Shown in pieces: positions 20,829-22,870 of a DNA stretch of 32,685 nucleotides. The stretch is from Clostridia bacterium. Its GTDB lineage: Bacteria; Bacillota; Clostridia; UBA1212; UBA1255. A program made the translations under genes and the position numbers. The DNA is taken from assembly GCA_017613535.1 (NCBI GenBank), contig JAGADO010000112.1, forward strand, positions 1-32,685, read 5' to 3'. The notes below the pieces were generated by a model that did no database searches, was not told where the DNA came from, and saw only the letters and a program-made list of their open reading frames with translations. Numbering within the stretch: position 1 is the first letter of the stretch; each line of letters opens with the position of its first letter.

Positions 20829-21812
20829 TCATCCGAGCGACTCTCTTATCTTCCTTATCGCGCCTCGTTCAAAAACGACTTCTCCGTACTCTTCGAGTAT
20901 GGGCAATACGATCGATGAAGGCACGCATACTCCCCTGTATTCCGCAGCCAGGCTGTCGAGCGCGGTCAATCTGTACGCGTTCTTCTTTCCTGCTGTCATC
21001 AGCAGATAAAACACGCCCGCATACTCGAAAAGCTTCGAACGGCTGTTATCCAGACCGGAATTCCCTTTCAAGAACCTGTAAAGGTCATCGTACGAAGGAA
21101 ATGCGACGATCCCCTCTCCGCCGTTCTCCTCATAATTCTCGCCGAACTGGATCTTCCTCCTGGCCTCGAAAACAGCAGAGACGCTATCCCTCGGAGCATC
21201 GCCGCGTTCATTATCCGCGTCATCCTGCTCATCGCTTTCATCATCCGTAAGCCTGCGCAGCCCGGCCAGAAAATCGTTCTTAAAATCGCTTCCGGACTCG
21301 CCTTTTTCCTGCGCCTCTTTAAGCGCGGAAGCCTGCATAAACAGGAACCCGTCTATCATCATCCTGCGCATAAGCTCCGCAGCAAGATCGAATCCTCCGC
21401 CTCCCGGAGCACCGGCCTCATTCCCCGAAGCAGCCTCCAGAGGCTTTCCTCCTACCCTGCTGAAAACGGGCGAATAAGAAAGATTCTGCTCCTTATTCCC
21501 CTTCTTCTGATCCGGATTACCGGAAACAGAAACTCCGCGGTCCTCGCCTCCGACCGCGGGAACATCTTCCGAATCGATGCTCTCGAGGACGAACCTGATC
21601 TTGGAATCGTTATCCGTGACAAATGAATCAACTTTTACGGCATTTATAGTTAGACCAAGCTCGATCTCGGCGTACGAGACCATATCGTCAACGAGTTTTT
21701 TATAAGCAGGCGCGTCGACGTTTAATTTGAATATATTGAGAGAGCGCTTTTCCATCTCAGGTACGCTCAGTTCGACCTGTATCGATCTGTCTGTCAGTCT
21801 TTCGATCTTCAT
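20829..21812 (-). CDS. mecA: MecA-type ClpC adaptor protein
   Basis: This 327-residue protein has the two-domain layout of MecA, the adaptor that loads substrates onto ClpC for degradation by ClpP. The N-terminal substrate-binding domain (about 1-80) starts MKIERLTDRSIQVELSV, close to the MecA opening. The C-terminal ClpC-binding domain (about 235-327) shows FPSYDDLYRFLKG, SKLFEYAGVFYLLM, a conserved AAEYRG segment and ILEEYGEVVFERGAIRKI. The linker (about 80-235) is much longer than in Bacillus MecA (total about 220) and is charged and Gly/Asp/Glu-rich, suggesting disorder. It has its own promoter and ends 46 nt before thyA. Its targets in this organism cannot be inferred. Confidence 0.85.
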   Translation of the reverse strand: MKIERLTDRSIQVELSVPEMEKRSLNIFKLNVDAPAYKKLVDDMVSYAEIELGLTINAVKVDSFVTDNDSKIRFVLESIDSEDVPAVGGEDRGVSVSGNPDQKKGNKEQNLSYSPVFSRVGGKPLEAASGNEAGAPGGGGFDLAAELMRRMMIDGFLFMQASALKEAQEKGESGSDFKNDFLAGLRRLTDDESDEQDDADNERGDAPRDSVSAVFEARRKIQFGENYEENGGEGIVAFPSYDDLYRFLKGNSGLDNSRSKLFEYAGVFYLLMTAGKKNAYRLTALDSLAAEYRGVCVPSSIVLPILEEYGEVVFERGAIRKIRESLG

Positions 21813-21848: not shown

Positions 21849-21877
21849 ATTCTACCATATCGCAAAGCTTATGGCAA
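21849..21877 (-). promoter_or_regulatory. Promoter for mecA (and probably thyA-folA-amidase)
   Basis: On the minus strand TTGCCA (21872-21877), a 17-bp spacer ending TGG and TAGAAT (21849-21854) are present, so an extended -10 supports a weak -35. The predicted leader is about 30 nt. Phased T-tracts lie directly upstream. Confidence 0.7.
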
Positions 21878-21880
21878 CGG

Positions 21881-21940
21881 CTTTGCACGTTTTTCACGCT
21901 TTTCCGGACATTTCCGGATATTTCCCGTTATTTCCCGGAC
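21881..21940. repeat. Six phased 10-bp degenerate repeats upstream of the mecA promoter
   Basis: Six consecutive 10-bp units can be lined up on the plus strand. Four of them (21901-21940) begin with TTTCC and continue as GGACA, GGATA, CGTTA and CGGAC; the two nearer the promoter (21881-21900) keep a T-tract at the same place but diverge. The 10-bp period matches one DNA helical turn, so the T-tracts (A-tracts on the transcribed side) lie on one face of the helix just beyond the -35 box. This could bend DNA, act as an UP element or provide a tandem protein-binding array. Confidence 0.7.
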
Positions 21941-21952
21941 GCCCTTCCGGTG

Positions 21953-22870
21953 TCAGGAACGCTTCGCAAATGAAGCGATTATTTTCCACAGATCCTGTCT
22001 GTCGAAAACATATTCGGTATTGCAGAAATGGCACACCGTTTTCGCGGCCCCGTCCTCGACCATTATCTGGCGAAGATCCCTGTAGCCGATGCTTCTCAGC
22101 CCGTTCTCCATGCGCTCGCGTGAACAGTTGCATTTAAATCCGGCATATGAGCGCGACTCGACTTTAAAATCAAGGCCTCTCAGAACATCCTCGCAGATAT
22201 TTTCAGGAGAAGCGCCGCCATTCAGCAAAGTGGTAACAGAAGGCATTGACGAAACGCGAGCCGTGATCTCGTCAGCCAGCCTGTCGTCCGCGCCGGGCAA
22301 CAGCTGTATCATATATCCGCCCGCAGCGTCAACGCCGTACCCCGGAATGTCGTTGTCAGCAGGCCCGACCAGCACTCCCGCGGCTACAGCCGTAGGTATC
22401 TGTTCCGATACGGCGAAATAGTAGGCAACATCTTCCGCGATCTCGCCGGAAATAAGGTTCGTTGTGCCGCTGTACGGCTCACCGAGCCCCAGATCCTTTA
22501 TGACGGTCAGAACGCCGCCTCCCACCGCGCCTCCGACATCAAGCTTGCCCAGGGAATTCAGCGGCAGATCCACGCGTGGGTTCGAGCAATATCCGCGAAC
22601 GTTGCCGTTTTTATCCGAAACAGCCAGGATGACGCCCGCAGGCCCGTCTCCCCTTACGGATAAAGTGAGCGAATCCGATTCGTTTTTCAGCCCTGACGAC
22701 ATCAGCATCGCACACGTGAGCACTCTTCCAAGCGCTGCTGTCATCACCGGAGAAGTATTATGTATCCTGAGCGCCTCGGAAACAGCATTCCCGGAGTCAA
22801 CGGCGATTATCCTCGCCATGCCGTCCGCGCACGTTCCGGTTATGAGATTGAATTTAAGACTCGTGCTCAT
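21953..22870 (-). CDS. hslO: Hsp33 redox-regulated chaperone
   Basis: This 305-residue cytosolic holdase is activated by oxidative unfolding when its zinc centre is oxidised. The N-terminal domain (about 5-180) shows NTSPVMTAALGRVLT and the Gly-rich VRGDGPAGVILAVSD segment. The C-terminal redox switch has CNC near residues 249-251 and CHFC near 282-285, the four zinc-binding cysteines of the family. Length is normal. It starts 15 nt after the methyltransferase gene with a GAAGGG site. No clear terminator is present before the mecA promoter, so read-through into mecA is possible; both products serve protein quality control. Confidence 0.96.
   Translation of the reverse strand: MSTSLKFNLITGTCADGMARIIAVDSGNAVSEALRIHNTSPVMTAALGRVLTCAMLMSSGLKNESDSLTLSVRGDGPAGVILAVSDKNGNVRGYCSNPRVDLPLNSLGKLDVGGAVGGGVLTVIKDLGLGEPYSGTTNLISGEIAEDVAYYFAVSEQIPTAVAAGVLVGPADNDIPGYGVDAAGGYMIQLLPGADDRLADEITARVSSMPSVTTLLNGGASPENICEDVLRGLDFKVESRSYAGFKCNCSRERMENGLRSIGYRDLRQIMVEDGAAKTVCHFCNTEYVFDRQDLWKIIASFAKRS

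Follow-up and report, generated by a model that had tools for sequence, protein, structure and literature searches.

In UP elements with phased A-tracts, A/T tracts stand at a fixed helical phase to the -35 box, and the 0A boxes of Spo0A are head-to-tail sites about one turn apart. In Bacillus, MecA is part of the ComK circuit and feeds regulators to ClpCP. The mecA gene meant here is that of the ClpC adaptor (PF05389); the methicillin-resistance mecA is a different gene of the same name. The K-boxes of Bacillus ComK form a pair, AAAA-N5-TTTT each, placed at helical spacing (PMC3536758). The late competence regulon of ComX in Streptococcus pneumoniae includes comEA, comEC, radC, dprA, a prepilin peptidase gene and recA (PMC6560143). 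WalR/VicR, an OmpR/PhoB-type regulator, has a site of two hexamers separated by 5 bp (PMC4168254). Here we describe a phased repeat upstream of a clostridial mecA promoter and compare it with these systems.

Structure of the array upstream of mecA

In the window, i.e. the whole 32,685-nt stretch of DNA that was analysed, a phased 10-bp array was located upstream of the mecA promoter at 21881-21940 (minus strand) by scanning and sequence count. Read on this strand, CSGGAAAT is repeated in the four distal units, which run towards the promoter. GGGAAA occurs at 21931-21936 (unit 1, farthest from the promoter, centre 55 bp from the -35 box) and 21921-21926 (unit 2, 45 bp), followed by CGGAAA at 21911-21916 (unit 3, 35 bp) and 21901-21906 (unit 4, 25 bp). 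Two in-phase A-tracts without a CSGG flank, both counted by sequence, lie on the same strand at 21890-21894 (centre 15 bp from -35) and 21882-21884 (6 bp).

The first-pass annotation had described six 10-bp T-tract units in exact register directly before the mecA promoter, four of them starting TTTCC, with 3 bp between array and -35 box. The repeat itself was confirmed, as were the gap (bases 21878-21880) and the four TTTCC starts, which are read on the plus strand at 21901, 21911, 21921 and 21931. Six units were indeed counted. Their tract centres are 21883, 21892, 21902, 21912, 21922 and 21932, which gives one step of 9 bp, the first, and four of 10 bp. Tandem Repeats Finder reported one 9-bp and one 10-bp array at this place. 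When both strands of the whole window were scanned for six TTT tracts in a 10-bp register (±1), only this array was found. Its unit scanner score was 33.7, and no score of 15 or above was obtained from shuffled contigs (about 380 kb, two genomes); the real sample of genome G000 contained eight arrays scoring at least 15, all eight within called ORFs. GGGAAATA was counted twice in the window, both times inside the mecA array, and shuffles averaged 1.0.

Promoter prediction placed the -35 hexamer TTGCCA at 21872-21877 and, after a spacer of 17, the -10 hexamer TAGAAT, preceded by TG, at 21849-21854 (both minus strand). The earlier claim of a weak -35 was not sustained, since the -35 box agrees with the consensus at 5 of 6 positions and TTGCCA-17-TAGAAT as a whole at 10 of 12, in addition to the TG before -10. 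By contrast, the proposed mecA-thyA-folA-amidase run agreed with Pfam. It comprises, all on the minus strand, mecA of the ClpC adaptor family (20829-21812) as the first gene downstream, thyA for thymidylate synthase (PF00303, 19952-20782), folA for dihydrofolate reductase (PF00186, 19397-19948) and, as the last gene, an N-acetylmuramoyl-L-alanine amidase gene (PF01520, 17665-19341). The upstream neighbour hslO (Hsp33, PF01430 by Pfam; 21953-22870, minus strand) ends 12 bp before the array. Genes and promoters were called with simple custom scripts.

Recurrence in the genus and in other relatives

A search for the unit elsewhere in the genome had been proposed, and it was positive: the two-unit pattern gave 15 exact matches in the window's own genome versus 0 for the reversed pattern. 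The two-unit pattern is enriched across all seven genomes of the genus (G000-G006), where TTTCCSGNNNTTTCCSG was matched 16, 48, 13, 5, 6, 15 and 36 times, versus 0, 1, 0, 0, 0, 0 and 2 matches of the reversed control. An element specific to mecA was therefore rejected. These genomes, mostly fragmented and incomplete, include a yak-rumen Clostridia genome (G001), the Ruminococcus-labelled RUG12823 (G004) and Mageeibacillus sp. UBA1255 (G005); the arrays of G006 were for the most part counted by pattern only. Part of the G000 pattern matches fall in coding sequence. Among the one-mismatch matches of the pattern, 20 stretches were read. Several palindromic-element arrays of G001 (L131:5970-6350, L146:16039-16086, L146:19043-19100 and L149:11244-11331) look like REP-like elements with a captured or grown array.

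Outside the genus, TTTCCSGNNNTTTCCSG was present in 16 of 51 other relatives, 14 of which had just 1-4 matches; G023 and G026, which both belong to a single other genus, had 25 and 10. G023, which belongs to another family of the same order, has long arrays of its own with many TTTCCGGGAAAT palindromes (L087:973-1061, L087:2250-2402, L103:1448-1539), located before an oxidoreductase gene (GFO/IDH/MocA) and other genes. Arrays of this genome also precede sugar-metabolism genes. A three-unit scan of wider genome contigs returned at least 109 stretches, mostly from unrelated bacteria, and is a poor guide to distribution; a viral scan returned 24. For these stretches and 29 further loci (L081-L109), the check consisted of the unit scanner and of tblastn with target and neighbour proteins. 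A protein match was obtained at 11 of the 162 loci, and no viral locus was among the 11. No title describing this element turned up in the open-access literature searched.

Genes downstream of the arrays

As identified by Pfam, the genes preceded by arrays or single units in the genus include radC, comEA, comM-dprA, comEC, recA, the prepilin peptidase gene and spoVS; dprA lies directly 3' of comM in G000. Hence several DNA uptake and recombination genes share one site, as would be expected of the operator of a competence regulon. In a unit-chain scan, 62 dense arrays (the density-filtered subset of 101) were obtained, 15 in called ORFs and 47 intergenic; the comM array of G001 was counted among the 15 owing to a spurious 61-aa ORF. 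Fifteen of the 47 intergenic arrays were upstream of radC, comEA, comM, recA, the type IV prepilin peptidase gene or mecA, four preceded a DUF3846 gene and two spoVS. The other 26 stood before other genes, e.g. those of a transposase, a glycosidase and proteins without known identity. A transposase-like gene at L073:1505-2329 (contig C164 of G000) lies downstream of an 11-unit array. No regulator family was recognised in targets L071, L072, L070 and L315. Several intergenic regions before orthologous genes had arrays in three or four species despite diverged array sequence. Because arrays also precede unrelated genes, including the sugar-metabolism genes of G023, competence is not the whole story.

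CGGGAAAT was found upstream of 35 of 51 target genes (nine families), whereas among the 133 control regions only 3 contained it; the Fisher p of 7.7e-22 is overstated since the species are related. The control regions came from contigs picked by number, blind to arrays. At an array score of 15, two of these 133 regions were positive, one of them being mecA of G001 and the other a palindromic element. As several gene families had joined the target set since an array pointed there, a subset of 15 promoters reached via their gene family was used to limit circularity, and CGGGAAAT was present in 13 of them; recA of G000, one of the 15, was also a one-mismatch match of the pattern. The set of 51 includes comM of G001, G003 and G004 and spoVS of G003 and G006, which a smaller set of 46 promoters omits. 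Neither contains comEA of G002, G003, G004 and G006, DUF3846 of G002, G004 and G006, or comM of G006, and comEC of G004 is cut by the contig end; ssb, coiA, comF, cinA and comG are outside the gene set. dprA was found in six and comEC in all seven of the genus genomes. In two genomes, G001 and G005, CGGGAAAT was absent at both comEC and recA; at recA, CCGGAAA or longer A-tracts take its place.

The pilus ATPase genes look Tad-like, and Tad-like pilus genes were rejected as members on account of a different unit upstream. These T2SSE ATPase genes (L336, L337, L340 and L341, from G000, G006, G003 and G001) are preceded by TGTCGAA-type units, which we take to resemble Spo0A boxes and which stand 10, 20, 30 or 40 bp from -35 in four of five genomes. 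The TGTCGAA units make up a further family of phased arrays, which differs from the first in both unit and helical phase; similar units also occur before comEC in G001. A palindrome, CTAC-N5-GTAG, was observed beside arrays in 6 of 10 promoters of G003 and G004 (comEC, recA, radC and DUF3846 promoters; L333, L361, L365, L388, L322 and L301) and in none of 36 promoters of the other five species or 133 controls. It is perhaps the site of a second regulator.

Phase, polarity, flanks and curvature

In the target set, the A-tract centres of the units lie about 5, 15, 25 and 35 bp from the -35 box. The phase-lock to -35 reached R = 0.744 at a period of 10.0 in 46 promoters, and none of 5000 random per-promoter shifts was as high; with 51 promoters and 124 units, R was 0.738 and the null maximum 0.462. 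Thus A/T tracts do stand at a fixed helical phase to -35 (R = 0.74), as in a UP element, and the 10-bp direct repeats are head-to-tail sites one turn apart, as expected of OmpR/PhoB-type or Spo0A-type operators. The nearest unit was oriented one way in 44 promoters and oppositely in 2, while 5 had no unit within 60 bp; 35 of 44 nearest units were at phase 5 or 6. Distal units are sometimes inverted, e.g. at comEA and comM, and the 49 inverted units are less strictly phased (R = 0.42 at period 10.0, 0.49 at 10.5).

The profile of A/T tracts around -35 was periodic in the target set (R = 0.34) and not in 96 control promoters (R = 0.05), when promoters scoring at least 8.5 were kept (45 of 46 targets, 96 of 133 controls). 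In the control promoters, too, an A/T tract is preferred at about 5 bp from -35. The two G positions preceding in-phase A-tracts were conserved at 0.90 and 0.89 in targets (96 tracts), versus 0.38 and 0.38 in controls (50 tracts), and the unit consensus on the promoter strand is TCSGGAAATA. The sequence between the tracts is therefore not indifferent, contrary to what a UP element would lead one to expect; this is judged by conservation only, with mecA of G005 as an exception.

Curvature had been proposed as a check of the array, and a high bend was indeed predicted with a wedge table. The predicted bend of the 60-bp mecA array is 82 degrees, the 99.8th percentile of the 60-bp segments of the window, yet 48 of 1000 dinucleotide shuffles equalled it. 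Over the 60 bp above -35, the mean bend was 67 degrees in targets (n = 36) versus 31 degrees in controls (n = 76), with p = 1.2e-7, which is overstated like all p-values here since related species are not independent. Curvature is therefore above background, as in intrinsically curved DNA. The predicted bend at spoVS is low (27, 13 and 24 degrees in G000, G002 and G005). Since hardly any bend is predicted for several targets, curvature is a companion of the arrays and not a property common to all of them; as the sole conserved property it was rejected.

Conservation and history of the site

The mecA array is present in three of the seven genus species. In G001 it stands before the same mecA promoter, and in G005 it is weak, with phased A-tracts kept and one GG unit remaining; no array was seen within 60 bp of the promoter in G002, G003, G004 and G006. 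None of 14 outgroup mecA loci had an array, and GGGAAATA occurred somewhere in four of these loci. Hence mecA looks like a recent recruit. The first-pass annotation had staked its reading on conservation in relatives, which fails for mecA in four of seven genus species and holds for the element itself. Upstream of radC, GGGAAAT was found in six of seven genus genomes and 0 of 14 outgroups, and a unit precedes recA in five of seven genus genomes and 5 of 14 outgroups (GGGAAATA). For spoVS the corresponding counts are four of six and 13 of 13 (GGGAAATA), and with C or G allowed at the first base the unit is upstream of spoVS in 19 of 19. Dense arrays in outgroup loci were confined to spoVS (4 of 13), with 0 of 14 each for recA and radC.

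On average, the best -35 fit at spoVS lies 5 bp and the best -10 fit 28 bp past the tract centre; each fit is clear in 10 of 19 cases. As the unit upstream of spoVS has been kept across genus and outgroups, this helically placed site is old. We infer that the genus multiplied the old spoVS site and extended its use to genes of DNA uptake and recombination, with mecA last. It should be further pointed out that 9 of 13 outgroup spoVS loci (L398-L407, L412-L414) have a second GGGAAATA-type copy 100-105 bp upstream of the first, a spacing of about ten helical turns seen in several families of the order. In four outgroups (G018:C22, G019:C37, G020:C6 and G021:C235) radC and mecA are divergent neighbours, and GGGAAATA was not found within 300 bp upstream of their radC matches.

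Discussion

The array is probably a multi-copy operator for a candidate sequence-specific activator, with one protomer per 10-bp unit. Each unit (TCSGGAAATA) would bind one protomer, so that successive units present their proteins on one face of the helix. The nearest unit, fixed in orientation and in the clearest cases directly upstream of -35 with its centre 5-6 bp away, would place a protein able to touch RNA polymerase, and the further units would serve cooperative binding and DNA bending. We infer activation rather than repression, and a role in competence may be suggested for the targets, which were identified by homology. In the clade of the window species the array also stands before mecA, and the thyA, folA and amidase genes that follow are thus probably under its control too. 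If MecA feeds regulators to ClpCP here too, a mecA gene controlled by the array would close a negative feedback loop. Counterpoints to the operator are that the two promoter-nearest tracts at mecA have no CSGG, that 26 of the 47 dense intergenic arrays precede other genes, that mecA has the array in just three of seven genus species and in no outgroup locus, that radC lacks the unit in all 14 outgroups, that CGGGAAAT is absent at comEC and recA of G001 and G005, that the Tad-like ATPase genes carry another unit, and that arrays of G023 precede sugar-metabolism genes.

A dedicated regulator would be superfluous if the phased A/T tracts worked as an extended UP element, either because the alpha C-terminal domains of RNA polymerase contact them, or because they curve the DNA back to the enzyme, or both. 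The tract centres at 5, 15, 25 ... bp from -35 are positions at which the alpha C-terminal domain would bind, and several other observations also suit such a passive element: the bend of 82 degrees and the stronger bending of target promoters than of controls, the phased A-tracts that G005 mecA retained when its GG was mostly lost, the distal units in either orientation (comEA, comM), and the tract about 5 bp from -35 that controls prefer too. However, it accounts neither for a GG flank conserved at about 90% in targets and 38% in controls nor for the fixed polarity of the proximal unit (44 of 46), and the coherent gene set, the little-bent spoVS targets (G000, G002, G005) and the 48 of 1000 dinucleotide shuffles that reach the bend of the mecA array speak against it as well. 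We consider this passive element unlikely. Phase-lock, polarity and GG conservation speak for sites of a sequence-specific activator, spaced one to a turn, rather than for a passive bend, although the predicted curvature is high as well. Of the two functions offered by the first-pass annotation, bend or UP element on the one hand and tandem regulator site on the other, the latter is thus better supported by recurrence, GG and polarity, and the former keeps the support of phase and curvature.

Other accounts do without a promoter function. A REP-like dispersed repeat family, which a transposase would have scattered and intergenic regions would tolerate, would lie near promoters by coincidence. 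Several G001 arrays do sit within palindromic elements, with flanking GGGGGACAGAGACCGGTT-type repeats in some cases, and one array precedes a gene with its best match, at 76.7 bits where the cut-off is 80, in the REP-associated tyrosine transposase family; the array-rich G023 from another family of the order and the orientation of arrays at comM and recA, which varies between species, fit such spreading too. Nevertheless, a REP-like repeat predicts positions independent of promoters, yet the target set is strongly phase-locked to -35, on which ground it was rejected as the sole account. Identical genes are targeted in several species while the unit sequences diverge, and the single units before spoVS are conserved across the order, making this origin very improbable. 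A hairpin in the transcript, acting as attenuator or as terminator after hslO, is hardly credible at all: the CCGG repeats are able to pair and a fold of -22.9 kcal/mol is predicted for 21876-21955 as minus-strand RNA, but the z-score is only -1.61, with 13 of 200 shuffles equal or better, and the array lies upstream of the promoter. Terminator prediction found none in the array, and Rfam gave no family at gathering score, its one chance-level match (E 0.7) lying outside the array. The RNA element was rejected on the negative Rfam result and the ordinary fold.

As to the protein that would bind the operator, ComK was rejected, its family (PF06338) having no match in any of the seven genus genomes, themselves incomplete, at E <= 1; in the control for this search it was above the cut-off in one named genome and detected in Bacillus subtilis. 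A speculative candidate, and on balance quite an unlikely one, is the Alba-type SpoVS, which would control its own gene through GGGAAATA across the order. An altered SpoVS of the genus would act on the expanded arrays, polymerising turn by turn and switching on the DNA uptake and recombination regulon, with mecA added later as a brake. Consistent with this proposal, the site lies before its own gene in all 19 genomes in which spoVS was found, SpoVS is related to a solved SpoVS-like structure, and its Pfam scores are 76-87 bits in the genus versus 111-130 bits in 10 of 13 outgroups, three outgroups being equally low.

If the operator reading is right, a candidate competence regulon has been obtained from sequence alone in uncultured Clostridia in which no ComK was found, its operator is given to the base, and the search for its regulator is reduced to a simple pull-down. 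Moreover, spoVS, a gene of unestablished role, would be tied to recombination genes via an order-wide site, and the arrays would offer a natural series of one to eleven units for measuring the effects of site number and helical phase.

Compared with the known systems, the arrays resemble UP elements in having A/T tracts phased to -35, and differ from them in their conserved G+C flanks, their polarised proximal unit and their concentration at one gene set. With OmpR/PhoB-type sites they share a head-to-tail arrangement about one turn apart near -35; the WalR site has two half-sites with an 11-bp period, whereas the arrays of the target set number as many as 11 units and have a period of 10.0 and another sequence. 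The ComX regulon has comEA, comEC, radC, dprA, a prepilin peptidase gene and recA in common with the array targets, but ComX is an alternative sigma factor with its own promoter, while the arrays are a repeated site upstream of sigma-70-type hexamers. Like the K-boxes of ComK, the arrays set A/T tracts on one helix face before DNA uptake and recombination genes. In the sequences read they are unlike K-boxes in their unit, which is CSGGAAAT in mostly direct repeats at 10 bp and not AAAA-N5-TTTT, and, in contrast to the ComK system, they occur in seven genus genomes without a match to the ComK family.
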